64,000 nucleotides of DNA, from NCBI RefSeq assembly GCF_002979865.1, contig NZ_PCPZ01000001.1, positions 62,001 through 126,000 of the forward strand, written 5' to 3'. Positions within the stretch are counted from its first letter, which is position 1, and every line of letters begins with the position of its first letter. Shown piece after piece: positions 44,218 to 64,000 of the stretch. Made by a program: the position numbers and the translations under genes. This DNA is from Arthrobacter sp. MYb214 (GTDB lineage: Bacteria; Actinomycetota; Actinomycetes; Actinomycetales; Micrococcaceae). The notes under the pieces were generated by a model. The model was not told the DNA's origin and did not search any database. It saw only the letters and a program-made list of their open reading frames with translations.

Positions 44218-44231
44218 ATGTCGCAAATTAG
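44145..44231 (+). CDS. Possible 28-residue upstream open reading frame
   Basis: ATG 44145 lies 5 nt after a GGGGGAA box and opens a 28-codon Cys/Val-rich frame that overlaps the start of the sugar transferase gene by 14 bp in another frame. The placement suggests translational coupling or a leader peptide rather than a functional protein. No homology was recognised. Confidence 0.4.
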   Translation: MIDVVLPVCDHPCCVESLARVGTRHVAN

Positions 44232-45747
44232 CAGCAGGCTGCGCGAAGATCGCGTATCTTCTCTCGGCACCTGGACGTTCGCACCTCCAAGGACAAATCA
44301 GGAAACCGGTACCGCCAGTGCCCGGGGCCGCGCTTATCTGCGTCGGCTTTACGGCACTGATCTGCTGGTCATTTCCTTGGTGAGCTCCTTGCCGGCAATC
44401 ACGCAATTCCAGAGCTCGCAGATGCCGCAGTTCATTGCGGGTAGCACGCATTACTACGTGCTGGCCGGGTTGCTGCTCACCTTCGCCTGGATGGCCAGCT
44501 TGCTATCCTTCAAGGCCCACCGGCTGGGAAGTGTTGCCGTGGGGATGCAGGAATACAAGATCATGGTCTATTCGGGGCTGGCACTGTCGGGCTTCATGGG
44601 GGTACTTATCGTGCTCACCGGCCAGGACAGCCTGAAAATTTTCCTGGTCCTCTCTTTGCCGCTGGGACTGCCCGCACTGCTGCTGAGCAGGTGGACCTGT
44701 CGCCAGTGGCTGAGCTGGCGCAGCCGAAGCGGCTACGCCTTGAGCAATGTGCTGATCTACGGCCAGCCCACCGACGTCCCGTACGCCGTCCGCCAGATTT
44801 CCAAGAAATCCGGGCCCGCCTACCGGGTCGTTGGCGCGCTGATGGACGGCGCGGCGGATCCGGAAGCCGAACGCGATATCCGCAAAACCGATCCGACCCT
44901 TCCTCTGGCCTACGACACCGGCGCCATCGAGCAGGAAATCCAGCGGTTGCATGCTGATTCGGTGATCGTGGCCGGACCATTACCCGGTGGCAATGAAGCC
45001 TTGCAGCAACTGGGCTGGCGGCTTGAGGGCACCGGGACCAGGCTCATCGTGGCCTCCTCGATCATCGGGGTTGCCAGCCGCCGCGTGCGGACCAGCCCCG
45101 TGGATGGGATGCCGCTGCTGCATGTGGAACTGGCAAAGTTCACCGGAGCGCGATACCTCTGCAAGCGCGGCTTCGACATCGTCTTCTCGCTGCTCGCCTT
45201 GCTGGCCTTGTCACCGGTTTTCCTGGTGATCGCCTTGCTGATCCGGCGCGAGGGCCCGGGGAAGATCTTCTTCCTCCAAGAACGGGCCGGACAGGACGGC
45301 CGCCCCTTCAAGATGATCAAATTCCGCACCATGGTCCACGATGCCGAAGCGCAATTGGCCGCCCTGCAAAAGCTGAATGAAGGGGCAGGGCCGCTGTTCA
45401 AATTGAAAGACGACCCGAGGGTCACCCGGTGCGGCAACTGGCTGCGCAAGCATTCATTGGATGAGCTGCCGCAGTTCCTCAACGTCCTGCGCGGGGACAT
45501 GTCGGTGGTCGGACCCCGTCCGGCGCTGTTCGCCGAAGTGGAAACCTATGAGGGCCAGGCCCGCCGCAGGTTGCTGCTGAAGCCGGGGGTGACCGGACTT
45601 TGGCAGGTCTCCGGACGGTCAAACCTGGAGTGGAAGGAAAGCGTGCGGCTGGATCTGTACTACGCAGAGAACTGGACCGTGCTCAGCGATTTGCGGTTGA
45701 TCTGGCGTACCTTCCAGGTCATGATCAAGCCCGACGGTGCCTACTAG
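44218..45747 (+). CDS. Polyprenyl-phosphate sugar-1-phosphate transferase (initiating EPS glycosyltransferase)
   Basis: This 509-residue membrane protein transfers a sugar phosphate onto undecaprenyl phosphate to start repeat-unit assembly. It has four N-terminal transmembrane segments (about 45-165), a CoA-binding-like Rossmann region (NVLIYGQPTDVPYAVRQI), a fifth membrane element near 320-340, and the C-terminal catalytic domain with KRGFDIVFSLLALL, FKMIKFRTMVHDAE, HSLDELPQFLNVLRGDMSVV, GPRPALFAEVETYE and GVTGLWQVSGRSNL. This matches the WcaJ/WbaP/CpsE family. The sugar is not predictable. Confidence 0.93.
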   Translation: MSQISSRLREDRVSSLGTWTFAPPRTNQETGTASARGRAYLRRLYGTDLLVISLVSSLPAITQFQSSQMPQFIAGSTHYYVLAGLLLTFAWMASLLSFKAHRLGSVAVGMQEYKIMVYSGLALSGFMGVLIVLTGQDSLKIFLVLSLPLGLPALLLSRWTCRQWLSWRSRSGYALSNVLIYGQPTDVPYAVRQISKKSGPAYRVVGALMDGAADPEAERDIRKTDPTLPLAYDTGAIEQEIQRLHADSVIVAGPLPGGNEALQQLGWRLEGTGTRLIVASSIIGVASRRVRTSPVDGMPLLHVELAKFTGARYLCKRGFDIVFSLLALLALSPVFLVIALLIRREGPGKIFFLQERAGQDGRPFKMIKFRTMVHDAEAQLAALQKLNEGAGPLFKLKDDPRVTRCGNWLRKHSLDELPQFLNVLRGDMSVVGPRPALFAEVETYEGQARRRLLLKPGVTGLWQVSGRSNLEWKESVRLDLYYAENWTVLSDLRLIWRTFQVMIKPDGAY

Positions 45748-45930
45748 GAGCCAGGATGAGAACTTGCAGCTTGCCCGCGGGCACGCCGTGGCAGGGCCAC
45801 TGGGACAAGCAGATATCGGGCCGGATCAATTTGCAGCCAGGATCCGCAAGCATGCGCTACCTCTCATCGGGTGCCAAGCGCAACCAATGTTCGAAAACAA
45901 AGCAGTACGGATTCTGTGGGGGATCAGAAA

Positions 45931-46908
45931 ATGCGTTCGTTGCGAGCACATGAGCCTGGAAGCACTCGGGCTATCAACAAGAATTGCTCTGGCGGGACAC
46001 CGCCGGATGCGCATCAACCAGTCCATCCGATTTCCTGCGCGGGAGAATTCCCGCTTGCGAGTTCCGGGTGGGCTCATGAGGCGGAGTCGGCGGCATGTCA
46101 GTCGCGCGAAAACACGACTTGCCCCCCAGCTGCCGCCGACTCCTTTGCCACGAAACCCGCCGGACGGATAAGAATTCTGTCAACGCTGGCGATGCTCTGC
46201 TCGTCGATCTTCTTGCTTGCAGCGTGCACTTCAGCTGCGCCCCAGGCGAGCGAGCTGGACAATGCGGCGCCGCAAGAACAAGCACCATCACCGTACGCAC
46301 CGCCAACTGGGAAGCCCCAGGCCAATCCGACGAAGGCACCGGAAGACAGTGCGCCGCAGCTGGAAGCTACCAAAGTGCCCAGCGACGAGCCAACACCCGA
46401 AGTAGAGAAGCCAGCGGACTACAGCGGGATAGCCTTCGAAGCCGGCGATGGAAAGCTGCCGGTGGTGAAGCGCTCCGGTGAAGCAGTCAGGGCCGCAGAC
46501 CGCATGCCGGCGAATATGAAGGATGCGACACAAGCCAGCTATCGGGACGGCGTCAACGTCACGGTTGCCGCGATCGGCAATGGCATCGTGAAAAGCGAGG
46601 GACCAGGCTATTTCACCGGAGCGAAATACCGGGTGTACGAGGTCCGGATTAGCAATGGATCCGGTGAGGAACTGGACATCTCCAGTGTGATCATTAACCT
46701 CGTGCCGGGCAAGGGCCAGCAGGCAGCACTGCCGCTATACGGCGAGGTCGAGGCCTATGACTTCTCTGGCACGATCGAGGCAGGAAAGCAGGCCAGCGCC
46801 CACTACGCCTTCATCGTCCAAGATGCCGGCGCCGTGGCAAAGGTGCAGGTGGATCTGGACAACCAGCACGCTCCAGGGTTGTTCACGTTGAAGGCAGAGA
46901 AGAAATGA
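45931..46908 (+). CDS. Lipoprotein, DUF4352-like; start uncertain
   Basis: The convincing part is a lipobox LLAAC with a Pro/Glu-rich linker and a C-terminal beta-sandwich-like domain (about the last 120 residues: VNVTVAAIGNGIV, YRVYEVRISNGSGEELDISS, ALPLYGEVEAYDF). ATG 45931 has a GGGGGA box 9 nt upstream but would add about 80 atypical residues before the signal peptide. The natural start position at RIRILSTLAML reads ATA (46168) or ATT, so the real start codon may be lost or unusual. A similar lipoprotein at 62092 starts MRIVPML. It overlaps the flippase gene by 4 bp. Confidence 0.65.
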   Translation: MRSLRAHEPGSTRAINKNCSGGTPPDAHQPVHPISCAGEFPLASSGWAHEAESAACQSRENTTCPPAAADSFATKPAGRIRILSTLAMLCSSIFLLAACTSAAPQASELDNAAPQEQAPSPYAPPTGKPQANPTKAPEDSAPQLEATKVPSDEPTPEVEKPADYSGIAFEAGDGKLPVVKRSGEAVRAADRMPANMKDATQASYRDGVNVTVAAIGNGIVKSEGPGYFTGAKYRVYEVRISNGSGEELDISSVIINLVPGKGQQAALPLYGEVEAYDFSGTIEAGKQASAHYAFIVQDAGAVAKVQVDLDNQHAPGLFTLKAEKK

Positions 46909-48170
46909 CTCTAGCCAGAACCCTGCTGAACAAGGTTGCCGGTGTAGCTTCATCTTCCACGGCACAGGCAATCCAGTCCCTGACGAGCCTGATTGTGCTG
47001 ATGCTGGCCGCCAAGCTTCTCGGGCTGGAGGCGCTGGGCCTCATTTCGACGCTTTACGGAGCGCTGATCCTTGCAGCCGCCGTCATCTCCGGCTTTGTCG
47101 GCGACTCGCTGACGGTACTGGACCGGCATGATCCGCATGTGCGGGCCGGACTGCGCTTCTGGCTCGCGTTGCTGGCCCTGTCCCTGGGGGCCATCGGAGC
47201 GTTGCTTTGCTGGGCGGGTACCGAGCTGGGCTTGCTCGGAGCTGTGCTCTACGGCCTGGCAGTGGTTGCCTACGTCGCTGAAGAGCTGGTTCGGCGCAGT
47301 TACATGGTGATCCTCAGCTTCGGAAAGCTGATCGCGGTGGACCTGGTGGTATTGGGAACCACCAGCATGGTGCTGCTGGGATTCGGCGTCTTCTCCACCT
47401 TGACGCTGGAAGCGTTCTTCTTGGCGGTCCTGGCCGGGCAATGCGCCGGAACCGCCTTCGGTTGGCTGCGCCTGCCAAACAGCGAAAAAACGCCGGCCCG
47501 CCGTCCGGCGCAAATCCGGGCTGTGGCCAGATTCGGAATCTGGCGCTCTGCCCTGCAAGGACTGCGCCCGGCCCAGCTGACCGTGATGCGCGTGCTCGTC
47601 ACCGCCCTGATCGGCCTGGCCGCAGCCGGCGCGCTGGAGGCGGCTAGGCTTTATGCTGCTCCTGCGATGCTGCTGGTCACCGGCACCTGTGCCTACCTGT
47701 TTGCGTCACTGGCCCGCGACCGAGATGCCGGTCCTTGGCGCCAGCTGAAGAACACTGATTCGGTGGTGCTCAAGCTTTTGCTGGCCACCGCAGGCTGCGC
47801 GGCCATTGGGCTGGTGCTGCTGCCTTGGGGCGGACCTCTGCTGACGGGCATCCGCCCGTCAGGTCTTGCTGTTACCGGGTGGCTGGCGTATGCCAGCGCG
47901 GTGGCGGCATCCACGCCGTATGGCCTGCTGGCTGCGGTACACGAGAATGCACGGCCGGTATTTGCTATCAGGTTCATGGACAGCATCCTGTCCGTGGTGC
48001 TGATTGCCTCGGTCCTGGTATTCACTTCGGACTACCGGCTGGTTCCGTGGGCCGCCGCCGCTGGTGCCTTGGCCGGCGGCTTGGCCATGCGGCGGTGGCT
48101 GCAGAAATCGGTTGCCGTGCACTTGCCCCGGCAGGGGCAACCAGCGGGCCGATTCGCCCAGCAGCGCTGA
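46905..48170 (+). CDS. Flippase-like polysaccharide transport membrane protein (PST/Wzx type)
   Basis: This 421-residue protein has about 12 hydrophobic segments through most of its length and the general pattern of MATE/PST exporters (LIVLMLAAKLLGLEALGLIS at about residues 30-49, close to the conserved first-helix region). It probably flips lipid-linked repeat units across the membrane. It begins on an ATGA overlap with the lipoprotein gene and is followed 24 bp later by the giant secreted protein gene, suggesting one transcript. Confidence 0.78.
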   Translation: MTLARTLLNKVAGVASSSTAQAIQSLTSLIVLMLAAKLLGLEALGLISTLYGALILAAAVISGFVGDSLTVLDRHDPHVRAGLRFWLALLALSLGAIGALLCWAGTELGLLGAVLYGLAVVAYVAEELVRRSYMVILSFGKLIAVDLVVLGTTSMVLLGFGVFSTLTLEAFFLAVLAGQCAGTAFGWLRLPNSEKTPARRPAQIRAVARFGIWRSALQGLRPAQLTVMRVLVTALIGLAAAGALEAARLYAAPAMLLVTGTCAYLFASLARDRDAGPWRQLKNTDSVVLKLLLATAGCAAIGLVLLPWGGPLLTGIRPSGLAVTGWLAYASAVAASTPYGLLAAVHENARPVFAIRFMDSILSVVLIASVLVFTSDYRLVPWAAAAGALAGGLAMRRWLQKSVAVHLPRQGQPAGRFAQQR

Positions 48171-48194
48171 CTTGGCAAAGCCCCGGTATCAACA

Positions 48195-51100
48195 ATGAAC
48201 GGAATGGACATGGAAGAGCAGCAGATAACGGCAGGCCGGCGCACACCCGTGCGGCGATTCACACGGGTGCTGGCTTCGGTCGCCGCGGCTGTGCTGGTCA
48301 TTGCCGGCCTGAGCGCAATTCCGGCGACAGCCGCTGGCGAAGAGGAAATCGAGCTGCCCGAGACGGTCAGCGCAAATCATCTTCCTACCCCGCAGCTGAA
48401 CGGGGTGGCTTGGGACCTGCGTGTGCGCGGGAATGTGGCTTATGTGGTCGGTTCGTTCACCCGGGTACGGCCAAGCGGTGCGAATCCTGGCGGCGCCGGG
48501 GAAGTGGTTCGCAATAACGCCATGGCCTTCAACATCACCAACGGGCAGATCCTGCCCTGGAACCCGAACTTCAACGCTCCAGTCATGGATATCGAGTTCT
48601 CTCCGGATGGAAGCCGTTTCTACGCAGGTGGACAGTTCACCGCCGTCAGTGGCCAAGCCCGCAGCAAGATCGCTGAATTCACCACTTCCAACGGGGCGCT
48701 GACTTCCTTCTCCGCCAGCGTGGGCGGGTCCGTGGAAACCCTTGCAGTGACCAGCGACGCTGTCTACCTGGGCGGCTCCTTCAACTCCGTGGCCAACCAA
48801 ACCCGGCGCAATGTCGCCAAGCTGAACCGCGCCAACGCGGAACTTCAGGCGTGGGCACCGGCCACCGATGATATCGTCCACGGCATCATCGCCACCGACC
48901 AGAGCGACCGCGTGGTCATTGGCGGACGCTTCCAGACGATCAACAACGAGCCCAAGGTCGGCATCGGCGCCGTGAATGAGACCACCGGCCAGCAGGCGGC
49001 ATGGAGCTCCACTCCGGTCCCGGCGCGGATCGATGACAATGCCCGTGCATGGGTCGTGGACCTGAAACTGGAAAACGGCGTCATCTACGCGGCGAACAAC
49101 GGCATGGGCTGGCACTGGTTCGACGGCCGATTTGCCGCCGATTACGCCACCGGAGACCTGATCTGGCTCGATAATTGCTATGGATCGACCTCATCGATCA
49201 GCATCATGGGCGACGTGGTCTACTCGACCCCGCACGCCCACGACTGCTCGTCGGTCAACGGGTTCCCCGAGGAGAATCCGATGATCTGGAAGCGCGCGCT
49301 GGCGGAGACTGCCTTCGCCACCGGTACGGATGCCACTGCGCCGTCGAATAATTCGCTGGTGCGCAACCAGCCAATCCCGACCTTGCTGCACTGGTATCCC
49401 TCGATCAATACCGGTACCTACACCGGGCAGTACCAAGGTGGCTGGGCCATGGACAATAACGGGGACTACCTGGTTCTCGGCGGCGAGTTCACCAGGTTGA
49501 ACAACACCAACCAGCAGGGCTTGGCTGTCTTCCCCAAGCGGTCGCTGTCGTCGAATTCGATACGGCCCGAGTACACCGCGGAGCTGAAGCCGTCGGCGAT
49601 CTCCCAACACAGCGGTTCCGTGCGCGTGGCCTGGCCGACCACCTGGGATATCGATGACGAAACGCTCACCTACGAGCTGCTGCGCGATAATTCGCTCACC
49701 GCCATCGACAGCCAGGACGTGTCCTCCATCTGGTGGAAAAAGCAGTCGCTGGGCTTCCGCGATGACAGCGTGGCTCCGGGCAGCACCCACACCTACCGGG
49801 TACGCGTCTCGGACCCGTGGGGCAATAATTACATCGGTCCGCGCTCGGATCCGGTGACCGTCAGCAACAGCGCCGAGAGTCCGTATACGCAGGTCCTGCG
49901 AGAGACCGGCGCGGATATCTACTATCCACTGAACGAATCCGATGGCAGCGTAGTCTTTGACAACATCGGCTTCGTCGATGCCGACGCCAGCGCGGCCCTG
50001 CAGCGCGGCCTGCCCGGTGCGATCAGCGACGATGACGCCAGCGGGTTCAGCGGGCAGTCGCTGGCGAGCCGAAATGCCGCGACCGCGCCGGACACCTTCA
50101 CCACCCAGCTGTGGTTCAAGACCGAGAGCGACCAGGGCGGCAAGCTGATTGGCTATGGCAGCTCGGCCACCGGCGACTCCGGTAGCTACGACCGCCATGC
50201 CTGGATGGACAATTCCGGACGCCTGCACTTTGGCACATGGCTGGGGTGGGCGGCAACGGTCAGTTCCTCGGCGAGCTACAACGACGGGCAGTGGCACCAG
50301 CTCACCGCAACCCTGGGCCAAGCCGGAATGCACCTGTATGTTGACGGGCTGAAGGTCGCCGAACGCACCGATGCCAGCAGCGGCCAGGCATACTCCGGCA
50401 TGTGGCGCATCGGCGGGGACAACCTCAACGGCTGGCCGAACCAGCCGTCGAGCAAGGCCTTCAACGGCGAGCTGGACGAGGTGGCGATCTTCAACGAGCA
50501 AATTGACGCAGCCACCGTGCTGCAGCTCTTCCAGTCCACCGGGCGCACTGCGGACATTCCCGAGCCTCCAGCCGATGCCTACGGCATCGCGGTCTACGGC
50601 GATGAACCGCAGATGTACTGGCGCCTGGATGAAACCGGGGGCAACGTGGCCACGGACAGCACCATCGCCCGCAACGACGGAACCATCAACGGCCCGGTCC
50701 GCTACGCAGAAGATTCCGCTATCGGCCACGGCACATCGCTGGGCTTCGGGGAGTCCGATGCCGCGGTGGTCTCGAACCGGGCGGTGCAGAACCCGACAGT
50801 GTTCTCCACCGAGGCCTGGTTCCGGACAACCACGGGCAATGGAGGCAAGATCATCGGTTTCGGCAATGCGGCCAGCGGCCTGTCCTCCAGCTACGACCGG
50901 CATGTCTACATGCGCAATGACGGCACCTTGGTCTTCGGCGTCTACACCGGAGCTGAAAATCTGGTCACCACCGGCCGGGCCTACAACGACGGGGACTGGC
51001 ATCATCTGGTTGCCACGTTGTCCGGCGAGGGCATGAAGCTGTACGTCGATGGCGCGCTCACCGGCACCAACCCGCAAACCGCGGCCGAGCCGTTCAACGG

Positions 51101-53660: not shown

Positions 53661-53850
53661 GCCCGGCCGTTCGCGGTTCGTTGCGCCAATGCGGTGCGAA
53701 TCGCGAGCGCTGGCTCAGCGGCTTCGCCTAGGAATGGGAATTCGATGGATAGAACAAGGGAAATGAACTAGATTGTACTCAGCTTGGGTTGTCCCCTGGG
53801 GATGCGCTGCACAAATGCGGCGCTTGGGGACAGGGCTGAATATCGGGGGC

Positions 53851-53876
53851 GCTTGCGGCCGATCGCGGCCGCAAGC
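53851..53876 (+). promoter_or_regulatory. Perfect hairpin in the leader of the CDP-alcohol phosphotransferase gene
   Basis: A 10-bp stem (GCTTGCGGCC / GGCCGCAAGC) with a gatcgc loop lies 28 bp before the start codon. A further stem (GTCCCC...GGGGAC, about 53791-53833) lies upstream. There is no T-run, so it may be a leader structure or a terminator of the preceding gene. Confidence 0.45.
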
Positions 53877-53904
53877 ACATAAGAGTTCACTGGGGAGGAC
53901 TCAC

Positions 53905-54648: not shown

Positions 54649-54724
54649 TTACCAAGAACATCGCACCTGGCCAGCTGCACCGGAATTGGGCTGGGGACAG
54701 CATGCGCATCGGGAGGCGGCAGGC

Positions 54725-56017
54725 ATGGATCTGAGTGATTTCCTCTTCGTGCTGCGAACCCGCATGTGGTGGATCGCGGCCAGCACCCTTGCCGGGATAC
54801 TCGCCTCCATCGCCATCACCCTGGGGATGACCCCGGTCTACACCGCGAAGTCGACCTTGTTCGTCAGCGTCAATTCCAGCCAGGACACGGCCTATGCCCG
54901 TGGCCAGTTCGCGCTGCAGCGAGTGGGGTCCTACCCGCAGCTGGTCAATGATCCGCAGCTGATCAACCAGGTGATCCGCGAGCTTGATCTGGATCGCAGT
55001 TTCCAGGACGTCAAATCCAATGTGAGCGCCACCAATCCGGTCGATACCGTGCTGCTGGCCGTGACGGCGAAGGCCCCGGAGGCCCAGCAGGCCGCGGACA
55101 TCGCCAATACGGCTGCCGGGTTGCTGGCGGAGTCCATCCAGAAACTGGAGAACACCGATCCCAAGAAGCTCGAAGTCAAAGCGGAGCTGTCCGTGCCGGC
55201 CGCGGCACCGCAGTACGCCACCGCGCCTCGCAAATCCGTGAATCTGGCCCTGGGCCTGGTTTCGGGAGCCAGCTTGGGATTGCTGCTGGCCCTGGCGCTG
55301 CACAAGTTGGATCCGAGGATCCTGCGCGGCCGCGACGCCGAACGGCAATTGCGCATGCGCGTGCTGGGCACCGTGGCAGCCTGGTCCAAGGACGGAGCCC
55401 GTGCCAACCCGACTGGCATCCAGGTCGGTTACCGCCAGCTGGTATCGAACCTGCTGATGGCCAATGACGGGCGCCTGCCGCAACGCATCCTGGTGCTCAG
55501 TACCCGTGCCGATGCGGTTCTCGATGGGCAGCAGCTCGCCCAGACCCTGGCGGCCATGGGCAAGCGCTCGGTGATCGTGCAGGCCGACCGTCAACTGGAG
55601 CCGCTGCGCCGCGACGAGGCAAGTGGAACGGGCCTGGCCCAAGTGCTCGCTGGCACCAGCGAGCTGCATGATGCGCTCACTCATATCGAATCGGTGCCGA
55701 TGGGCTACCTCCCTGCCGGACCGCAACCTGAAACGCTGCGCCGTTTCGATGTGTTCGCCGGATTGGACAGCTTGATCGCTTCCCTCGAAGAGGATTTCGA
55801 TGTAGTGATCTTCGTAGCCAGCATGGAGGGCCAGCCGGTGGACGCCACCGCAGTGGCCCTGCACAGCGATTGCGTGATCCTCACCGGACGTGAACGGCGA
55901 ACCACCTACCGACAGGTTGCCGATGCCCTGCAGGAGCTGAACGCTGTGCGAGTCGGAGCGACCGGGCTGGTGCTGGTGCGCAAGCCTTCGCGCTTCCGGC
56001 ACCGGCGGGGTACCTGA
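54725..56017 (+). CDS. Wzz-like chain-length determinant with degenerate kinase domain
   Basis: From ATG 54725 (GGGAGG ribosome-binding site) this is 430 residues. An N-terminal transmembrane helix (about 15-35) and a second near 195-215 bracket an extracytoplasmic Wzz-type domain. The C-terminal cytoplasmic domain has the overall layout of a BY-kinase or ParA-like fold (RILVLSTRADAVLDGQQLAQTLAAMGKRSVIVQAD, split here over residues 265-300; later DVVIFVAS), but the Walker A Gly-Lys-Ser/Thr is missing and there is no tyrosine-rich tail. It is likely a non-catalytic co-polymerase. An upstream in-frame TTG at 54632 is less likely. Confidence 0.78.
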   Translation: MDLSDFLFVLRTRMWWIAASTLAGILASIAITLGMTPVYTAKSTLFVSVNSSQDTAYARGQFALQRVGSYPQLVNDPQLINQVIRELDLDRSFQDVKSNVSATNPVDTVLLAVTAKAPEAQQAADIANTAAGLLAESIQKLENTDPKKLEVKAELSVPAAAPQYATAPRKSVNLALGLVSGASLGLLLALALHKLDPRILRGRDAERQLRMRVLGTVAAWSKDGARANPTGIQVGYRQLVSNLLMANDGRLPQRILVLSTRADAVLDGQQLAQTLAAMGKRSVIVQADRQLEPLRRDEASGTGLAQVLAGTSELHDALTHIESVPMGYLPAGPQPETLRRFDVFAGLDSLIASLEEDFDVVIFVASMEGQPVDATAVALHSDCVILTGRERRTTYRQVADALQELNAVRVGATGLVLVRKPSRFRHRRGT

Positions 56018-56019
56018 TC

Positions 56020-57312
56020 ATGCCTCCGGCCGTCAGCGCGTCCTGGACGCCGGCGGAGCAGATTCCGGTGCCACGGCGCTACCGGGTTCCGCGTCTGTGG
56101 CAGCTGAACCTGCTGTGGATCCTCATGGTCTTCAGCGTGGTTGCCTGGCGCCAGGGAACGCTGTTCACCGGCGGATTGGACCTCGTGGTCGTGCTCAAGG
56201 CGCTGTTGCAAGGCGCCGTGCTGTGCTGGGCGATCCTGCTGTGGATGTGGAGTGGTGCCCGTCAGCCGGTAGGCGTGCGCAGTATCGCGCTGCTCGCTCC
56301 GGTTCTGGCCCTGAGCGTGATCGGGGCGATGGCAGAAGGCAATGTCATGGCCTCGGCCATCATCGCGATCCGCGTGGCGATGCTGGCAGCGACGGTGCTG
56401 TTCGTCATGCGGGTTTTCCCGGCCCACCAGGTGCTGCTGGCCATGTGCGTCGGTTTGGCCGCGGTGGGCATCATCAGCGCGGGGACCGGGCTGGCGCTGG
56501 GCGGAGGCGGGCGCCTAACAGGCGGCATCCCTCCGCTGAGCCCCAATGAGATTGCCTTGCTTTCCGGCATCCCGGCACTGGTTCTTTTCCACCAATCGCT
56601 GCGCGCGCATGTGCGGTGGTGGCACGTGGGGATGCTGGTGTTGCTTAGCGCCATCCTTCTGCTCTCCGAGTCGCGCACCGCTCTCATCGCGGCTGCTTGC
56701 ACGGCAGCTGGCATGCTGCTGATGCTCCGCCGAATCCCGTTGCAGACCATCGTGGCGGCGCTGGCGGCCCTTCCGCTGGTGTTCTACCTTGCGTTCCTGA
56801 CTCCGGTTTTGCAGAATCTGATGGCTCGCGAGGACAGTGCCTCGGTGATGACGTTGAACTCCCGGACTATCAGCTGGTCGGTAGTGCTGAACCTGCCCAA
56901 TGATTCATGGCAGAGATGGATCGGTGCGGGATTGAGCCAGAAGACCATTGCTGTCGAAGGGCAGTACTGGGACGAGCAGGTTTTCGATTCTTCGTGGATT
57001 TCCTTGCTGGCGCAAACTGGAATCATCGGAACGCTGCTTGTGGCTTTCTGGGTTCTGCTGACGGTTTTCGCCGCATTGCGTTCAAGCAGGCTGCGCAGCT
57101 TGCTGTTCCCGCTGCTGGCATTCGTGATCATCCGCAGCGTGATGGAAAACGGGCTGGTAGATGCCGGTGCGCTATTCCTGATTTTCCTGGTGTTCGCCCT
57201 GATGCTGGAGCCCGCCAGCAGCCGTGCGGCCTTGGACTGGGAACACGCTGCACCCCTGCAGCGCAAGCAGCCGCCGGAGCCGCCGGATCCGCCGGTGGCG
57301 ATGGGCAACTGA
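56020..57312 (+). CDS. Wzy-like polysaccharide polymerase / O-antigen ligase family protein
   Basis: This 430-residue protein has about ten transmembrane segments. A large central loop and the family-typical block LLSESRTALIAAACTAAGML plus NSRTISWSVVL and WIGAGLSQ point to the Wzy_C/O-antigen ligase superfamily, which polymerises repeat units outside the membrane. The C-terminus is Pro-rich and cytoplasmic. It starts 2 bp after the Wzz-like stop and is last in this short operon. Confidence 0.82.
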   Translation: MPPAVSASWTPAEQIPVPRRYRVPRLWQLNLLWILMVFSVVAWRQGTLFTGGLDLVVVLKALLQGAVLCWAILLWMWSGARQPVGVRSIALLAPVLALSVIGAMAEGNVMASAIIAIRVAMLAATVLFVMRVFPAHQVLLAMCVGLAAVGIISAGTGLALGGGGRLTGGIPPLSPNEIALLSGIPALVLFHQSLRAHVRWWHVGMLVLLSAILLLSESRTALIAAACTAAGMLLMLRRIPLQTIVAALAALPLVFYLAFLTPVLQNLMAREDSASVMTLNSRTISWSVVLNLPNDSWQRWIGAGLSQKTIAVEGQYWDEQVFDSSWISLLAQTGIIGTLLVAFWVLLTVFAALRSSRLRSLLFPLLAFVIIRSVMENGLVDAGALFLIFLVFALMLEPASSRAALDWEHAAPLQRKQPPEPPDPPVAMGN

Positions 57313-57361: not shown

Positions 57362-57390
57362 TTGCTTGTACTGACAGGGTGGCCCGGAGC

Positions 57391-59988
57391 CTAGCGCGGG
57401 TAGCTGCCGATGAGCTTGGAAGCGGGGGCCTGTCCTATCAGGGAGGCAATATCGCTAGGCAATGCGGTAGCCTGGCTGTTCTTGCCCGTAACGCTGGTAG
57501 TCGGATTATTGGTACTGCTCAGCACCGTGCTGGAGGTGAGTTCAAAGGAATTCAGCTCTTGTCCGGTGGACTTGGCGAAGGCCGGCAAGGTGGTGAACAC
57601 CGCGGGGTTTCCAGCGCCTTTGGACCAGACGGAGGACCACTTCGGATTCGTGGAGTTGACGCGGTGATAGGCATTGGACGCCAGGGAGATCTTCATCTGT
57701 TCTGCCGTGTAGCTGCCCGAGTAGTCCTCGACGGCAAGAATTGCGTTGCCACCGCCGGTATTGGAGAACACGTTGTTCTTCGCGACAATGTTCTTATTGA
57801 TCCAGGTCATGGTGGTGTCAGGGAATGGCTGGCGCGGATCGTGCCCGGGGTCGGACTTGTTCGCTGCGCGGCGCGCATCCTGCACGATGTTCAGCACCCG
57901 GCTCTTGCCGCTGATGGTGTTGTTCCAGATCTTCACATCGCTGGTGTTGTTCAGTTTGAAGGCGAATCCGGAATTCTTGGTGATGCGGTTGTTGGCCACC
58001 ACTGCTTTTGCGGAGATCTCCAGCGACAGTCCGTGCCCGGTATTGGAGATCAGGTCATTATTCAGGATCTTGGAATCGTAGACGGATTCATCCAGCCATA
58101 GTCCCGGACCGTAGTTGCTGTTGAGCTTGGAATCCTTCACCGTCACGCCCCGGGTGCGTCCGATCTTCAGCCCGCCGGAGACAGGCGAAGTGTTGAACCG
58201 CTCGTGGTTATTGCCTGTGGAGGCCAGTTTGTTGACGACCAGTCCGTCAGCGTACACGGCGTTCATGCCCAGCATGCCGCTGCGCTGGATCTTCACGTTG
58301 CTCACGGTGTTCTTCACAGCGCTGACGTTCAAACCCGTGGTTGCCGTATCCTCGATGGTCAGGTTCTGCACAGTGATGCCCGGCTTCTCCGCGGTGACCG
58401 CACCCATGTCGGGCACCGAAGGAGCGAACTTGCGCACATTGATACCCGAAACGCTGGAATTGCCGCTGCGGATGCTCAGGGCCTTGACCAGCGTAGAAGC
58501 GCGCACGGACTTTCCGGTTGGGTCGGTACCGAGGTGCAGCTTGTTATTGGCGCGGTCCACATGGAAGGCACCCGGTTTGAGCTTGGCAACCGAGGATACC
58601 TGGGTCTGCTTGGTCCCGTTGATCCATACCTGGTCGGGGTGGGCTGCCATGGGATAGCTGGAATTGATGAAGCCCCATGCTTCAGCCGTATTGTCTGTGG
58701 CTCCCCGGGTGTAGGTCGGGCTGGTATCGAAATCGTAGTCCCAGCCGGATTTCACCCATCCATTGCTCGCGGCGGAGAAGCCCGTGATTGCCTTGGAACC
58801 ATCGAGCCAGACGGTCTCTCCCGGGTATTCGCGCAGCTTGAGGCTCTTGCCTGCGGGGATCACTACCGACTCATGGTAGCTGCCACCACGCACCACGATG
58901 GTCTGTCCGCTGGAGGCTTTGGAAATGGCCTTGGACAGGGTGCGCAGTGGCGCTGAGGCGGTACCGCCGGAGGCATCATTTCCGGATGCCGAAACATAAA
59001 GTGCTGTTGAAGGGATGGCGCCCAGGGTTCCCGCCTGCGGTGCCTGCTCGCCAACGCTGACCTCTTCGGAGTGGGGAACGGTTCCTTCGGCATCAGGTGC
59101 AGGTTCGGGAATTGGGGAAGGCGATGGGGCAGGTGCCGGTTCCGGGGCCTGCATCGCCGGTTCGGTAGCTGAACGCGCCACCAGATTATCAACGTGCAGA
59201 CCGGAGTTGCCGGTGGCGCTGGCCGAAAGGTAACCGCCTATGCGCAAGCTGCCTTTGGCCGAGGCCAGCGCTGTGGATGCATCTTCCGATTCCAGCTGCC
59301 ATTCGGGGGTTCCGCTGCCAGCTGCGAAGGCTCGGGCCTTGAGCGACGCGGTGCCGCTTCCGGTGACGGCGAAGTCAACATGGTACGCAGTCCCCGGGCG
59401 AGCCGCTGCGCTGATCTGCCGAGAATCGAGCACGATCTTTTTACCGCTGACGGTCCGTGAAATTTCCAGGGACAGATTGCCAGTGCTTTGCAGCCGAAGC
59501 GAAGCGGTGTATTGGCCATCTGCGGTACTTCGGGCACCTAGGTGCGCATAGGACGAACCCGTGCTGGGCAGCGAGTCGAAGGAAATATCGACGCCGGCCT
59601 GCATGTCGGCAGCGTTGATGGCGGCGGTGGCATGGCTGAGCTTGCCGGGGACCAAGGTAATTTCACCCTGGGAACCATCTACGGCGAAACGGCTTGGACT
59701 GTTGGCTAGGTAGGGGATTCCACTTGAAGCAGAGCCCCAGCCGGAGCCAACTGTGCGGTTCATGGCATCGGCGACCAATGTGGTCGAAGCGGCCACGGGC
59801 ACCGGGTTCAAGGAGGTGGCGACGATGCCGCACGCGGCGGCTAAGGCCAATGCCGCGATCAGGCGCGGCCGCTGGGAAGATTGGCCGGATGTATCCGGAC
59901 CGAGGGGCAAGAGGTTCTTGGGGGAAACGTTCTGCAAAGGATCCTCGGAGCTTAACCCGTGCTCCCCAGCAAAACAGGCCCTGCTCAT
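57391..59988 (-). CDS. Secreted parallel beta-helix protein
   Basis: Up to 865 residues from ATG 59988; a TTG at 59934 with GAGG upstream is an alternative that gives a standard signal peptide (LIAALALAAACGIVATS). After export come a jelly-roll-like domain (about 70-275) similar to the C-terminal domain of the 1821-residue protein, a Pro/Ala-rich linker, then a right-handed beta-helix (about 330-830) beginning VSASGNDASGGTASAPLRTL and IVVRGGSYHESVVIPAG. Later coils are Asn-rich (NNRITKNSGFAFKLNNTS, VKIWNNTISG), as in polysaccharide lyases, C5-epimerases and hydrolases. It may modify or release the EPS made by its neighbours (inference). Confidence 0.85.
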   Translation of the reverse strand: MSRACFAGEHGLSSEDPLQNVSPKNLLPLGPDTSGQSSQRPRLIAALALAAACGIVATSLNPVPVAASTTLVADAMNRTVGSGWGSASSGIPYLANSPSRFAVDGSQGEITLVPGKLSHATAAINAADMQAGVDISFDSLPSTGSSYAHLGARSTADGQYTASLRLQSTGNLSLEISRTVSGKKIVLDSRQISAAARPGTAYHVDFAVTGSGTASLKARAFAAGSGTPEWQLESEDASTALASAKGSLRIGGYLSASATGNSGLHVDNLVARSATEPAMQAPEPAPAPSPSPIPEPAPDAEGTVPHSEEVSVGEQAPQAGTLGAIPSTALYVSASGNDASGGTASAPLRTLSKAISKASSGQTIVVRGGSYHESVVIPAGKSLKLREYPGETVWLDGSKAITGFSAASNGWVKSGWDYDFDTSPTYTRGATDNTAEAWGFINSSYPMAAHPDQVWINGTKQTQVSSVAKLKPGAFHVDRANNKLHLGTDPTGKSVRASTLVKALSIRSGNSSVSGINVRKFAPSVPDMGAVTAEKPGITVQNLTIEDTATTGLNVSAVKNTVSNVKIQRSGMLGMNAVYADGLVVNKLASTGNNHERFNTSPVSGGLKIGRTRGVTVKDSKLNSNYGPGLWLDESVYDSKILNNDLISNTGHGLSLEISAKAVVANNRITKNSGFAFKLNNTSDVKIWNNTISGKSRVLNIVQDARRAANKSDPGHDPRQPFPDTTMTWINKNIVAKNNVFSNTGGGNAILAVEDYSGSYTAEQMKISLASNAYHRVNSTNPKWSSVWSKGAGNPAVFTTLPAFAKSTGQELNSFELTSSTVLSSTNNPTTSVTGKNSQATALPSDIASLIGQAPASKLIGSYPR

Positions 59989-60334
59989 TCAATATAGACG
60001 ATGGTTTAAGGGTCACGCGGGCCCTGCTGTAAATGGTGGCATGGAATGAACCGTTATTCAATCGTGATGTTTCTCTCTCGATCCCTGGACTTCGAGGTTG
60101 ACGAGGAAACTTCCCCAGTGGCCAGTGAGTATTCCAAGTACCCCCGAGCAAGTAATTCGCGGGTAACGCAAGTACGGGTGCACTCGTGTGCCGCAACGGC
60201 ACGACACATATGCTCGGTAGATGAGAAACGCATGCTTGCGGCATGTTCCGGAACTCGCCGGTGATTTTGGGGATCGACGCTGGTGCGGCAAGCAAGCGAA
60301 CGTTGATTCTGCTGTTTAAATTTGGGGGAACAGA
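59989..60334. promoter_or_regulatory. Divergent promoter/leader region
   Basis: These 346 bp contain no gene. They carry GAGTATTCCAAGT (60127-60139), a perfect inverted repeat GTGCCG/CGGCAC (60188-60202) and AATTTGGGGGAAC (60319-60331) ending 3 nt before the glycosyltransferase start. The first and last are shared with the leader at 38002-38331. Confidence 0.55.
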
Positions 60335-61522
60335 ATGCAACGCACCGAGCACCATGACTCGCGCGCCAAGCTGCGCATCGCCTTGATCGGCACCAGGGGA
60401 GTACCTGCACGCTATGGCGGTTTCGAGACCGCTATTGAAGAGGTAGGGCGCCGCCTGGCCGATCAAGGGCACGAGGTGACCGTATATTGCCGTGGCACTG
60501 CCAAAGACGAGCGCATGAGCGAATACCAGGGCATGAAGCTGGTGCATTTGCCTGCCATGAGGCGAAGGAGCCTCGAGACGCTGAGCCATACTGCACTGTC
60601 GGTGATCCATGCCCTCTTCAACCGGCCCGATGCGGCGATTGTCTTCAACGCGGCCAATGCCCCGCTGCTCCCGCTGCTGCGTTTGGGAAGGATTCCCGTC
60701 GCCACGCACGTGGATGGGCTGGAATGGAAACGGGCCAAGTGGGGACCTATTGGCCAGAAGTACTACCGGCTATGCGAGCGCCTCTGCGTCTGGTGGAGCA
60801 GGGAATTGATTGCCGATGCCCTGGGTATCGCCAACTACTACGCGGCGAAATTCTCGCGGGCAACGAGGCTCATCACCTATGGGGCACCGCAAATTCCCGA
60901 GGCTGCTGCAGTGAAATTGGCTGAGCTCGGCTTGGAATCCGGAAAGTTCCATCTGGTAGTGGCCCGCTTCGAGCCGGAGAACCACGTGGAGATGATTGTC
61001 CGTGGCTACAGCCAGTCGCAGGCCAGGCTCCCGCTGGTGGTCGTCGGTTCGGCGCCCTATGCCGAGCAATACACTCAGCAGGTTCATGCCGCGGCCACGG
61101 AACAAGTCCGCTTCCTAGGCGGGGTATGGGACCAGCAGCTGCTAGATGAGCTCTATGCCCATGCACTTGCCTACTGGCATGGCCATTCGGTCGGCGGTAC
61201 CAACCCATCATTGCTCAGGGCGTTGGGTGCCGGTACGGCGATCAACGCCTATGACGTGAACTTCAACCGCGAAGTGGCCCAGGCAGCCGGCGAATACTTC
61301 AATGACCCGCAATCCGCGTCCAGGCTCTTCGACCGCACCGAATCAAAGGACGATGCCGTTCGCCAACGCGCCCAGCTCGCACGAAAGCGCGCTAGCGACT
61401 ATGACTGGGACGATGTTGCCCGGGCCTACGAAAAGCTGTGCTTGGATTTGGCCGGTGCCGGAGAGCCTTCGGTGGAATTCGACGCAGAACCGTCTGCGGA
61501 AATTGGCCGCCGCCGCGCCTGA
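60335..61522 (+). CDS. Glycosyltransferase with DUF1972 domain (probable rhamnosyltransferase)
   Basis: This 395-residue GT-B enzyme has the DUF1972 signature at its N-terminus (IALIGTRGVPARYGGFETAI, about residues 15-34), followed by a glycosyltransferase family 4-like C-terminal half (HLVVARFEPENHVEMIV and HGHSVGGTNPSLLRALGAG). Characterised members such as pneumococcal Cps2T transfer rhamnose, which agrees with the rml genes in this island. It is probably cytoplasmic, acting on the lipid-linked acceptor. Confidence 0.88.
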   Translation: MQRTEHHDSRAKLRIALIGTRGVPARYGGFETAIEEVGRRLADQGHEVTVYCRGTAKDERMSEYQGMKLVHLPAMRRRSLETLSHTALSVIHALFNRPDAAIVFNAANAPLLPLLRLGRIPVATHVDGLEWKRAKWGPIGQKYYRLCERLCVWWSRELIADALGIANYYAAKFSRATRLITYGAPQIPEAAAVKLAELGLESGKFHLVVARFEPENHVEMIVRGYSQSQARLPLVVVGSAPYAEQYTQQVHAAATEQVRFLGGVWDQQLLDELYAHALAYWHGHSVGGTNPSLLRALGAGTAINAYDVNFNREVAQAAGEYFNDPQSASRLFDRTESKDDAVRQRAQLARKRASDYDWDDVARAYEKLCLDLAGAGEPSVEFDAEPSAEIGRRRA

Positions 61523-61631
61523 GGCTGGCACGAGAATTCTGGGAAACAGTAAAGCGTCCAGGCCATGGGGATGGCCCGGATGCTATGGGGAATCGAATCA
61601 GCAACTGGTTCATGAGAAATTGGGGAAAATA

Positions 61632-62072
61632 ATGATCACTGGGTACGCCGCAGGTGCTTTCGACCTGTTCCACGTCGGGCACCTGAATATTCTCAGGCAA
61701 GCCAAGTCCAGATGCGACTACCTGATTGCCGGTGTGGTCAGTGATGAAAGGCTGCTCCAAACCAAGGGGAAACGGCCGGTGATACCCGAAAGCGAACGAC
61801 TGGATATCGTCTCCTCGATAGGCTTCGTGGATGAGGCGGTTCTCGATTTTCATCCGAACCGATTACTGACGTGGGAGGATGTCAGATTCGATGTGTTCTT
61901 CAAGGGAGATGACTGGAAGGGCACCCGCGAAGGAAAAGGACTAGAAGAGCTCTTTGCAACCGTCGGGGTGAGAGTCGAGTACTTCCCCTACACCGTGCAT
62001 ACTTCCAGCACCAAGCTCAGAGTGGCCTTAGGGCAACTAAGTTCGCCATCTATCCAGGTCCAGCGGGCCTGA
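61632..62072 (+). CDS. Cytidylyltransferase-like protein (glycerol-3-phosphate cytidylyltransferase type)
   Basis: This 146-residue protein has the nucleotidyltransferase HxGH motif in AFDLFHVGHLNILRQAK (about residues 9-25) and a C-terminal HTSSTKLR, equivalent to the RTxGIST-type motif. Its length matches TagD. It likely makes CDP-glycerol or a similar CDP-alcohol, a potential substrate for the CDP-alcohol phosphotransferase at 53905. The start is preceded by TTGGGGAAAAT. It lies between the glycosyltransferase and lipoprotein genes. Confidence 0.87.
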   Translation: MITGYAAGAFDLFHVGHLNILRQAKSRCDYLIAGVVSDERLLQTKGKRPVIPESERLDIVSSIGFVDEAVLDFHPNRLLTWEDVRFDVFFKGDDWKGTREGKGLEELFATVGVRVEYFPYTVHTSSTKLRVALGQLSSPSIQVQRA

Positions 62073-62091
62073 GCGCAGAACCAGACAGATC

Positions 62092-62844
62092 ATGCAACGC
62101 GCACAAGCAGCAGAACCTCCGGCCTGCGGCCATGTCCCAGCCAAGATGCGCATCGTTCCGATGCTGCTCTTGCTGGGAATCGCCCTGGTTTCCTGCACGG
62201 TAGAACCCCAGACTTCGCCGCAAGCGGCCATGCCTGGGGAACCAGCCGAAACTACATTGGCGACTATCGATCAGCAGCTGCACGAATCAGCCTTGGCGGC
62301 GCCCTCCACCAAGGCGGGCAAGGCCGCTGAAAAATCCGAGGATTCAGCTTCTCCTGCCGAGAAAGCAGAGAAGTCCACATGGAAAAAGGACAAGGATGCG
62401 CAGAAAGTGGCGCCGGATGCCCAAGCGGCTGGCAAGCCGCCTGCCACAGCCAAGGCAGTGGACCTTGCTGAAGAAGTCCAGGCGGGCCCGCATGCGCAGA
62501 TGCGGATCAAGCGCATCGAGCAAACCCAGTCCGAAGCAGAAGGCATCGGGCAAATCGCAGGGGCCGCGACACTGGTTGAAATCGAGTTATCCAACGACGG
62601 AGTCACCACGCTGGACTTGGGCAAGACCCAAGTGCGCTTGTTCTACGGCGACGGCAGGGAACCGGCGGCCGTGCTCACCGACACACGCAGCACCGTACTT
62701 CCTCCACAACTGGCGGCAGGCAAGCAGGCTACTGCCACCTATCTCTTCAGCGCCCAAACAGAATCAGCGTCTGACGTGACCCTAGAATTCGAAACCGGCG
62801 CAACCAAGAAAATCCAACAGCTCGCAGGTGAGGTATCGCCATGA
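62092..62844 (+). CDS. Lipoprotein resembling the one at 45931
   Basis: This 250-residue protein has lipobox LVSC, a long Ala/Lys/Glu-rich linker (about 45-135, possibly wall-spanning) and a C-terminal beta-sandwich-like domain (MRIKRIEQTQS, TLVEIELSNDGVTTLDLGKT, KQATATYLFSAQT) of the DUF4352 kind. The start may be 62092 or 62146 (MRIVPML); neither has a strong ribosome-binding site. Its stop overlaps the downstream propeller gene (ATGA). Confidence 0.72.
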   Translation: MQRAQAAEPPACGHVPAKMRIVPMLLLLGIALVSCTVEPQTSPQAAMPGEPAETTLATIDQQLHESALAAPSTKAGKAAEKSEDSASPAEKAEKSTWKKDKDAQKVAPDAQAAGKPPATAKAVDLAEEVQAGPHAQMRIKRIEQTQSEAEGIGQIAGAATLVEIELSNDGVTTLDLGKTQVRLFYGDGREPAAVLTDTRSTVLPPQLAAGKQATATYLFSAQTESASDVTLEFETGATKKIQQLAGEVSP

Positions 62845-64000
62845 TCCGCAGATCCGCCCCGGCCATCGCCCGATGGGCCATGACCATGATTGCTGCAACC
62901 GCGCTGATCGCGGCCGCCGCATTAGCCACGCCGCCGCAGGCACTTGCAGATAGTGTGCCCGCGGATCCGTCAGACCCGCTCACCCCTGCGACCGTCACCG
63001 CCGATGCCCTCCCGACCGTCCAGATCGATGGCGTGGTCTGGAGCCAAGTGGTCATTGGCAACACGGTATATGCAGGAGGAAGCTTCGCTACCGCGCGTCC
63101 TGCAGGTGCGGCGGCCGGGACGCAAACCGCAACACGCAAGAACATCCTCGCCTACGACATTCGAACCGGAGAACTGCTCAACAGCTTCACTCCGGAATTC
63201 AATGCCCAGGTACTCACTCTTGCTGCCTCGCCGGACGGCAGCCGGCTCTACGCTGGCGGCGACTTCACCACCTTGGACGGGCAAAGCGCTTCGCGCATTG
63301 CGGCACTGGACCCGGTGACCGGAGAGCGCATCGAGGAATTCGACCCGCAGCCTTCAAATTCCGTGCGCAGCATTGTCGCCACGAACACCACGGTGTACCT
63401 GGGCGGTTCGTTCTTCCGCATTGGCGAAGCCTGGCGCGAGCAAGCGGCTGCGTTGCGTGCCAGCGACGCGGCCCTCCTGTCGTTCAGGCCAGTGGTCGGT
63501 GGAGGGCACGTCGAGTCCATGTCGCTGTCGCCCGATGGGACAAAGCTGGCCTTGGGCGGCAAATTCACGCAGGTGAACTCGACCAGCGACTTCGCCAACG
63601 GCCTGGCCGTCGTGAGCACCGAGACCAGCGGGAAGTACCCATATCCGGCAGCCTCGCATGTCCGCAACGGCGGGGAGACTGGTTCCATCACTTCCATTGC
63701 CACGGATCAGGACACTTTCTACGCCAGCGGCTACACATTCGGGCGAGAGACCACCCTGGAAGGCGTGGTGGCCATCAAATGGGCAGACCTCGAAACACGC
63801 TGGGTGGAGGACTGCCACGGGGATACCTACTCCGTGCACGCCACCGGAGACCTGCTCTACCTTGCCGGCCATCCGCACTATTGCGGAAACATCGGCGGAT
63901 TCGCCCAGGAACCCAACTGGCAGTACAACCGCGCCATGGCCTTCAGCAAGGAAACAGCAGGGACAATTGACCGTGAAATCCACGGATATACCAATTTCGA
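62841..64000 (+). CDS. Secreted beta-propeller protein, 5' part (partial at window end)
   Basis: The frame runs from ATG 62841 to the right edge without a stop (386 codons). A signal peptide (MIAATALIAAAALATPPQALA) is followed by a propeller domain related to that of the 1821-residue protein, with repeated blades (YAGGSFATARPAG, YAGGDFTTLDGQ, YLGGSFFRIGEA, ALGGKFTQVNS). A conserved Cys-His block is shared as well (EDCHGDTYSV then GHPHYCGNIGGF here; DNCYGSTSSI then PHAHDCSSVNGF in the other). It overlaps the lipoprotein gene by 4 bp. The C-terminal architecture lies outside the window. Confidence 0.85.
   Translation, partial: MIRRSAPAIARWAMTMIAATALIAAAALATPPQALADSVPADPSDPLTPATVTADALPTVQIDGVVWSQVVIGNTVYAGGSFATARPAGAAAGTQTATRKNILAYDIRTGELLNSFTPEFNAQVLTLAASPDGSRLYAGGDFTTLDGQSASRIAALDPVTGERIEEFDPQPSNSVRSIVATNTTVYLGGSFFRIGEAWREQAAALRASDAALLSFRPVVGGGHVESMSLSPDGTKLALGGKFTQVNSTSDFANGLAVVSTETSGKYPYPAASHVRNGGETGSITSIATDQDTFYASGYTFGRETTLEGVVAIKWADLETRWVEDCHGDTYSVHATGDLLYLAGHPHYCGNIGGFAQEPNWQYNRAMAFSKETAGTIDREIHGYTNF

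Follow-up and report, generated by a model that had tools for sequence, protein, structure and literature searches.

Why should one polysaccharide locus encode, twice over, a small membrane protein beside a giant secreted propeller protein? The question arises from the window analysed here, a 64,000-nucleotide stretch of the Arthrobacter sp. MYb214 genome, in which a sequence-only reading had placed two genes for DUF4352-like lipoproteins (from 45931 and 62092), each upstream of a gene for a secreted propeller protein. Both positions were confirmed, and the propellers as well as the small domains proved to be homologous. We call the small proteins partners and the two partner–propeller modules type 1 and type 2. 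Our analysis finds the gene pairing to be near-obligate in the genomes sampled and suggests that the two proteins cooperate in building or holding the coat.

The polysaccharide locus and its two modules

All genes named in the sequence-only reading are present where it put them. The left part of the locus contains the dTDP-rhamnose genes rmlA (34541–35506, minus strand; Pfam NTP_transferase), rmlB (35516–36580, plus strand; GDP_Man_Dehyd) and an rmlC–rmlD fusion (36508–38001, plus strand; dTDP_sugar_isom and RmlD_sub_bind). They are followed by two overlapping plus-strand genes (38332–43649) for large LuxR-type proteins of 877 and 895 amino acids, possibly regulators of the polysaccharide locus; Pfam GerE is found in both, and AAA_16 and TPR_12 in the second. 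A priming polyprenyl glycosylphosphotransferase (44218–45747, plus strand; PF02397, 4.5e-68; TIGR03025 above cut-off) then precedes the type 1 module, which consists of the partner gene (45931–46908, plus strand), a gene for a multi-helix membrane protein overlapping it by 4 bases (46905–48170, plus strand) and the gene for a giant propeller protein of 1821 amino acids (48195–53660, plus strand).

Between the modules lie plus-strand genes for a CDP-alcohol phosphatidyltransferase (53773–54648, start uncertain; PF01066, 8.4e-12), a Wzz-like chain length protein whose C-terminal part is kinase-like (54632–56017; PF02706, 1.2e-9; TIGR01006 and TIGR01007 below cut-off) and a Wzy-like polymerase with about ten hydrophobic segments (56020–57312; PF04932, 5.4e-11). 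A secreted beta-helix protein is encoded on the minus strand (57391–59988; PF13229, 3.7e-15). Two further plus-strand genes encode a rhamnosyltransferase-like GT4 glycosyltransferase (60335–61522; DUF1972 and Glycos_transf_1; NF046071 at 194 bits, against a cut-off of 500) and a TagD/RfaE-like cytidylyltransferase-like protein (61636–62072, start estimated; PF01467, 2.1e-14; TIGR02199, 6.2e-20, and TIGR01518, 2e-16, neither reaching its cut-off). The type 2 partner gene (62092–62844, plus strand) overlaps by 4 bases the type 2 propeller gene, which starts at 62841 on the same strand and, in sequence extended past position 64000, ends at 66368, encoding 1175 amino acids.

The exopolysaccharide genes said to be interleaved with the modules are thus in place, but the flippase (Wzx) lacks a family match. 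The protein encoded at 46905–48170 is named a presumed flippase solely because of its gene position and its roughly nine hydrophobic segments; it has no Pfam or NCBIfam match, and a Pfam search of this protein together with five relatives came no closer than Polysacc_synt at E 0.28, for a single member. The priming transferase, the Wzz protein and the Wzy-like polymerase, our marker set for the Wzx/Wzy type, all score above Pfam cut-offs. The locus product is probably a polysaccharide made by a Wzx/Wzy-type route, rhamnose included.

Membrane partners and giant propeller proteins

Are the two small proteins of one kind? BLASTP aligns them across 97 residues with E=1e-6, and a single profile scores them at 133 and 130 bits, its sole matches in the genome at E≤0.001. 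These matches rule out chance resemblance, and the two lipoprotein domains are homologous. Their DUF4352 (PF11611) scores of 18.9–21.3 bits fall short of the curated cut-off of 25.9, which rules out membership by score, and for this reason we term them DUF4352-like. The type 2 domain is predicted (pLDDT 83.8) to form an MPT63/YjhA-like beta-sandwich, and Foldseek paired its model with 1lmi, 4r4g, 3cfu and 9a4z (prob 1.00, TMq 0.66–0.72, E 8e-4 to 3e-3).

In both window partners a lipobox cysteine stands behind an N-terminal hydrophobic stretch (LAAC in type 1, LVSC in type 2); the type 1 start is uncertain because the ATG at 45931 leaves a long run ahead of the signal sequence. The earlier description as lipoproteins therefore fits both window members but fails as a family rule. 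All 102 partners could be assigned, 47 by a lipobox and 55 by a hydrophobic helix at the N-terminus, when the count took the best domain of each, relaxed the lipobox pattern and lengthened the upstream stretch; a few of these anchors could be spurious, as the longer stretch can take in frame ahead of the true start. A stricter filter (n=103) gave 40 lipoboxes, 53 helices and 10 undecided, and with mechanical start codons trusted a lipobox was found in 46 of 113 partners. Lipoproteins make up only about half of the partner family, and the remainder is tethered by an N-terminal hydrophobic helix. No fusion of partner and propeller occurred among 9335 distinct open frames.

The type 1 propeller protein runs from a signal sequence through the propeller, an Fn3-like stretch (recognized by eye), two LamG domains and seven PKD repeats to a C-terminal domain (53010–53657). 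Its type 2 counterpart comprises the propeller, an Fn3-like stretch (again by eye), one LamG domain, two PKD repeats and the C-terminal domain. Likeness between the two runs from the propeller through the C-terminus (35% identity over 756 amino acids, E=2e-116, with more matches toward the C-terminus). None of 107 complete propeller proteins ends in an anchor, either LPXTG or a C-terminal helix. Two groups carry no Pfam name: the C-terminal domain, which had no Pfam match, and the full-length propeller, which Pfam detects only as weak Rax2/DUF5122 pieces. In the best 50 of 1637 rows, Foldseek returned only generic propellers. The C-terminal domain has three copies genome-wide, all inside the polysaccharide locus; the third lies near the N-terminus of the beta-helix protein (33% identity, 216 amino acids).

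Residue conservation, counted over propellers scoring at least 400 bits, is near complete at C280 (164/164 ungapped rows), H299 (163/163), H301 (162/163) and C303 (163/163), and E383 is kept in 154/154 rows. Such a Cys/His/His/Cys site could mark the propeller as an enzyme instead of a lectin: a polysaccharide lyase, transferase or modifier that the partner recruits to the export site, with sugar binding and spacing left to the LamG, PKD and C-terminal domains. Seven-bladed propeller lyases exist, and a beta-helix protein is also encoded within the locus. However, the Cys/His set could also be a disulfide with a structural metal site, and the two window proteins (Pfam, NCBIfam) and six relatives (Pfam) yielded no catalytic family match; we regard the enzymatic reading as unlikely.

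Pairing across genomes and two module lineages

Co-occurrence was surveyed in three genome samples with a profile (A2) that had been trained on partners adjoining propellers; it defines a propeller-linked subfamily because it was built from such partners, and the genome searches made with it afterwards were blind to position. Strong matches are those of at least 80 bits for partners and at least 440 bits for propellers in the family sample, and at least 400 bits for propellers in the order sample. The family-sample tally took 80 propeller rows, down to 227 bits, and 54 of 71 partner rows, down to 37 bits; the order-sample tally took every row listed by searches with limits of E 1e-15 and 1e-60.

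In the family sample (295 genomes), all 46 strong partner matches have a same-strand propeller within 3 kb downstream, two of these propellers being split. Both genes occur in 36 genomes, and a partner alone in one, where the propeller is split. In the order sample (278 genomes), the identical 42 genomes hold partner and propeller, and in the phylum sample (396 genomes) strong matches of both kinds fall in the same 2 genomes. No genome has a full-length propeller yet lacks a partner (0/36 in the family sample, 0/42 in the order sample). At the level of genes, the 4 or 5 kb upstream contain no partner for 12 of 56 propeller genes in the family sample and 27 of 72 in the order sample, so that a single partner may act for several propellers. 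In the family sample, 25 weaker partner matches were, by eye, never near a full-length propeller. The functional pairing inside polysaccharide loci put forward from the sequence thus gains support from genome-level co-occurrence. Fisher tests on the family and order samples ignore genome kinship, and the paralogue comparison given below serves as the control.

Carriers amount to 77 genomes over two samples (37 and 42, two in common). From these, 34 loci were selected and, with the window, gave a neighbourhood set of 35. A priming transferase was found in 25 of the loci, Wzz in 25 and a rhamnosyltransferase-like GT4 in 29, each against 0 of 12 control stretches half the length of the loci; the neighbourhood counts are likely low because mechanical gene picking labelled the partner in no more than 23 loci, although all 35 bear one. 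Relatives of the window flippase and polymerase were found in 7 loci each, and the LuxR-type regulator cluster in 14, all from the window's own family.

Could the partner act on the Wzz or Wzy machinery, its pairing with the propeller reflecting shared regulation only? The frequency of Wzz-like genes would suit this, as would the type 1 modules in the window and in genomes G007, G025 and G032, where a flippase-like gene separates partner from propeller. Yet where propeller matches are only weaker and distant, the partner is missing (0/13 genomes in the order sample; 1/69 in the family sample, the exception, G269, having a split true propeller), and partner and propeller sort together into the module types. 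We judge a role in polymerization to be very improbable.

This sorting is seen in all 60 ordered comparisons among 12 modules of six genomes, comparisons that are not independent of each other, and a Mantel test gave r 0.709 (n=89), a value that 0 of 1000 permutations reached. Propellers of type 1 share 33–43% identity with those of type 2 (34–43% inside one genome), and same-type propellers from different genera are 48–70% identical. The sequence-only reading was right that the module is repeated in one locus, but a recent local duplication is ruled out, as same-type propellers of different genera are closer than the two types within a genome and all 60 comparisons show cognate sorting. The repeat represents two ancient lineages.

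Passive co-inheritance of neighbours in a polysaccharide island would also bring the two genes together, given that both sit in polysaccharide loci and that such loci can move as blocks. Against it, the other locus genes vary among the 35 loci and the pair persists, a gap of 150–451 bases separates partner and propeller in 28 of the 46 family-sample cases, the partner comes after the propeller in 3 of 89 pairs, and the two module types coexist and stay cognate. On these grounds passive linkage is the explanation to which we give almost no credence.

Proposed surface retention and known systems

We propose, at roughly even chances, that the membrane-tethered partner retains or assembles the secreted matrix propeller protein at the cell surface, where the latter holds the polysaccharide of the locus. 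The locus would build the polysaccharide and export its own matrix proteins alongside. A signal peptide would secrete the giant propeller protein, in which no membrane or wall anchor is visible from sequence, and the partner, fixed in the membrane by a lipid or an N-terminal helix, would display one MPT63-like beta-sandwich outside. The partner may bind the propeller protein via the propeller or the C-terminal domain, and so bound would keep or assemble it at the surface. With its propeller, LamG and C-terminal domains the giant protein could then hold the nascent polysaccharide, and through this grip coat and cell would stay joined. As a counterpoint, MPT63-like sandwiches are found in proteins with differing roles.

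The partner may instead be a membrane-bound chaperone for folding or secretion of the giant protein, outside the final surface structure. The partner pairs almost obligatorily with secreted proteins that are giant and rich in repeats, as a chaperone would, and one partner may serve several propellers per genome; cognate co-divergence suits binding and chaperoning alike and so cannot separate the two. To our knowledge, many giant secreted proteins do without such a partner, and we consider a chaperone rather unlikely. If surface retention is correct, the modules may be a widespread actinomycete coat device made of a membrane receptor domain, a giant propeller and a private C-terminal domain, the types co-diverging as receptor and ligand, and an independent two-part counterpart of the RbmC/Bap1 'double-sided tape'; for this wider claim we put the chances a little below even. 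How bacteria lacking an outer membrane keep hold of a secreted exopolysaccharide is, as far as we know, poorly understood for Actinomycetes, and a pair that is near-obligate over the 77 carriers and divides membrane anchor and giant binder between two proteins offers direct candidates for coat retention.

We found no description of such a pairing in the literature searched. The propeller proteins resemble sortase- or helix-anchored adhesins in being giant, multi-domain and secreted, with PKD and LamG repeats, but the membrane anchor lies on a separate partner. The predicted fold of the type 2 partner domain matches extracytoplasmic DUF4352/MPT63-like proteins (MPT63, YcdA, YjhA, YxkC), of which YcdA and YjhA are labelled lipoproteins in the PDB; the window partners differ in scoring under the Pfam cut-off and in forming a subfamily that goes with propeller genes. 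Among Wzx/Wzy clusters of Actinomycetes, wps and imp of Actinoplanes share with the window a priming transferase, Wzz, a Wzy-like polymerase and glycosyltransferases, and none of the words propeller, PKD, LamG and lipoprotein appears in the main text of PMC13390465.

The closest parallel is with Vibrio RbmC and Bap1, likewise secreted beta-propellers with two related versions per genome, tied to one exopolysaccharide. Sequence kinship to them was not found: there was no sequence match among solved structures, neither appears in the best 50 of the 1637 Foldseek rows, and Pfam detects no beta-prism domain in either giant protein of the window or in six relatives. The window system also differs in its LamG and PKD repeats, its dedicated membrane partner and its actinobacterial host. 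The Vibrio rbm cluster also contains rbmB, a presumed beta-helix lyase. Our best reading is that the propeller system would work like RbmC/Bap1 while being unrelated to them. According to PMC10102183, the Bap1 and RbmC propellers of Vibrio cholerae bind VPS, and its authors ask whether the propeller-based tape design is general. The partner–propeller system, with no sequence kinship found to that of Vibrio, would provide a test case for this generality.

Two modules in one polysaccharide locus

In the 3.7-Mb host genome (the window being C1:62001-126000), the locus starts with dTDP-rhamnose genes, including an rmlC-rmlD fusion (34541-38001), and continues with overlapping genes for two large LuxR-type regulators (38332-43649). 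Genes for a priming transferase, the first lipoprotein (45931-46908), a presumed flippase, the 1821-aa first propeller protein (48195-53660) and a CDP-alcohol transferase (53773-54648) follow, and then those for Wzz-like and Wzy-like proteins, a beta-helix protein (minus strand), a GT4 transferase, a TagD/RfaE-like cytidylyltransferase (61302-62072) and the second lipoprotein (62092-62844). Extension beyond 64000 completed the second propeller gene (62841-66368; 1175 aa), after which comes a GDPD protein gene. A 4-base overlap joins each lipoprotein gene to the one after it, the flippase gene in module 1 and the propeller gene in module 2.

The GDPD-domain protein (66439-67884; L003:13439-14881 in the fetched DNA) is represented by relatives in 10 of the 35 loci compared, and a long C-terminal portion of it falls outside the GDPD match; read by eye, its N-terminus includes a lipobox-like LAGC as well as a twin-arginine-like stretch. 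Farther along, past serA in the fetched stretch 73001-93000 (L004), GC drops to 43-59%, few long frames were picked and the genes encode an NYN-domain protein, a methionyl-tRNA synthetase and a UDP-glucose/GDP-mannose dehydrogenase; this stretch looks like a foreign island.

The likeness between the modules claimed in the sequence-only reading was borne out for both components. The lipoprotein domains share 30% identity across 97 residues, and the two propeller proteins align from the propeller towards the C-terminus. Pfam assigns two LamG and seven PKD domains to the first and one LamG and two PKD domains to the second, with a Fn3-like stretch, read by eye, separating propeller from LamG. The terminal domain of both has no Pfam match; a third copy lies towards the N-terminus of the beta-helix protein, and a genome search at E≤0.001 returned no copies beyond these three proteins. 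The closest named relatives of the first propeller in the scan were from Arthrobacter sp. NIO-1057 (94% identity) and Glutamicibacter sp. JC586 (83%).

Six genomes spanning three genera contain both module types. Across these genomes, proteins of the same type were closer than those of different types in 60/60 ordered comparisons for partners and 60/60 for propellers, which rules out a fresh duplication of the module in the window. The distance matrices of partner and propeller, compared over 89 distinct pairs, were correlated (r 0.709; 0/1000 permutations as high). Together, the type sorting and this correlation indicate, at the level of sequence, two old modules with ancient co-inheritance.

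Pairing of partner and propeller across genomes

Profiles of the small partner domain (26 rows) and the propeller (31 rows) were made from 47 related loci, and genomes were searched with each profile alone. Among the 295 genomes of the family sample, 37 contained strong partner matches (46 in all) and 36 contained full-length propellers (56 in all); every one of the 46 partners was followed, within 3 kb, by a propeller encoded on its own strand. The propeller proteins are not commonly found without the lipoprotein-like partner: both were present in 36 family genomes, the full-length propeller alone in none and the partner alone in one (G269), and in the order sample (278 genomes) all 48 partners and 72 full-length propellers fell in the same 42 genomes. 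Of these 48 partners, 41 had a propeller within 5 kb downstream; for the other seven it lay in a different position on the same contig, at a distance of 0.5-13 kb and in one case on the opposite strand. Genomes with only weaker propeller matches contained a partner in 0/13 cases (order sample) and 1/69 (family sample), the latter being G269. Strong matches of both also occurred in the same two of 396 genomes in the phylum sample.

The gap between partner and propeller was 150-451 bases in 28/46 family cases and longer, mostly 1.4-1.5 kb, in 18/46; a flippase-like gene occupies longer gaps in the window and three other genomes (G007, G025 and G032). No partner was found within 4 kb upstream of 12/56 family propellers or within 5 kb upstream of 27/72 order propellers, which counts against a strict one-to-one pair. 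Every such propeller belongs to a genome with a partner; for 9 of the 12 one lies within 20 kb, as it does for 63/72 when all propellers of the order sample are counted.

The propeller match is in two pieces in G269 and at a second locus of G255. Propeller genes broken into at least two frames or matches beside a partner (G269:C3:461813-463038, G255:C2:9024-10162 and L025:9836-14051) possibly reflect phase variation, decay or assembly error. A contig binned as Bifidobacterium breve is probably misbinned: of the 110 residues printed for its partner domain, all but one are identical to those of Actinobacteria bacterium IMCC26207 (L014, L015).

Polysaccharide context of the relatives

Gene content was compared between 35 loci, the window among them and the other 34 fetched, and 12 control stretches of half that length. 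The priming transferase and Wzz each had relatives in 25/35 loci, the rhamnosyltransferase-like GT4 protein in 29/35 and the beta-helix protein in 9/35, all against 0/12 controls. The CDP-alcohol transferase recurred in 23/35 loci (1/12 controls) and the cytidylyltransferase in 21/35 (0/12), a hint that the polysaccharide carries polyol-phosphate or a similar CDP-activated decoration. Relatives of the window's flippase and polymerase were each found in 7/35 loci and 0/12 controls. In a further clustering, with names read from the sequences, 22 loci encoded GT2-like transferases and two flippase-like groups were present in 12 and 8 loci, respectively, so loci other than the window's probably rely on different flippases. 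The LuxR-type regulators fall into a 41-member cluster that occurs in 14/35 loci, every one in the window's own family, and in 0/12 controls; the second regulator, as a single-sequence query, had one match in the controls. They are likely a dedicated regulator family of these polysaccharide loci.

Membrane tethering and a possible matrix protein

Both window partners are lipoproteins, as first read, but across the family this did not hold: a lipobox was recognised in 47 of 102 distinct partners and an N-terminal hydrophobic helix in the other 55, and a stricter anchor filter left 10/103 undecided. The feature common to the partners, as predicted from these N-termini, is membrane tethering by either of two means. 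An LPXTG motif or C-terminal helix was found in 0/107 complete propeller proteins (six truncated rows dropped); 89 of the 107 contain the C-terminal domain, which terminates the protein in 87 cases.

The model of the type 2 partner domain (pLDDT 83.8) resembles MPT63, YcdA, YjhA and YxkC, and that of the propeller (pLDDT 89.5, pTM 0.90) bears only a generic resemblance to known propellers. Full-length propellers almost always retain C280, H299, H301 and C303, each of which is also present in 13/13 ungapped rows of mid-scoring relatives. This Cys...HxHxC set (49176-49247, residues 280-303 of the modelled stretch) is a candidate disulfide, metal site or active site. Q366 occurs in 158/158 rows of full-length propellers versus 4/12 rows of mid-scoring relatives, the rows being aligned pieces rather than independent proteins; this contrast could reflect a site for partner or ligand, or could arise from relatedness alone.

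Because a secreted giant without its own anchor shares a locus with a small membrane-tethered partner and the enzymes of one polysaccharide, the propeller protein is most plausibly a matrix protein that the partner would hold or assemble at the surface. We infer that it binds both partner and polysaccharide.

Open-licence literature gave no match for DUF4352 with exopolysaccharide; for PKD domain, LamG, propeller and exopolysaccharide in Actinobacteria; for PKD domain-containing protein, exopolysaccharide and Microbacterium; or for LamG/PKD domains with polysaccharide gene clusters. Consistent with the initial impression that such a pairing was undescribed, no description appeared in the titles and abstract openings among the matches listed. 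No sequence link of the window propellers to Vibrio RbmC/Bap1 was found; these proteins, whose propeller binds exopolysaccharide according to an excerpt of PMC10102183, are the closest known parallel.
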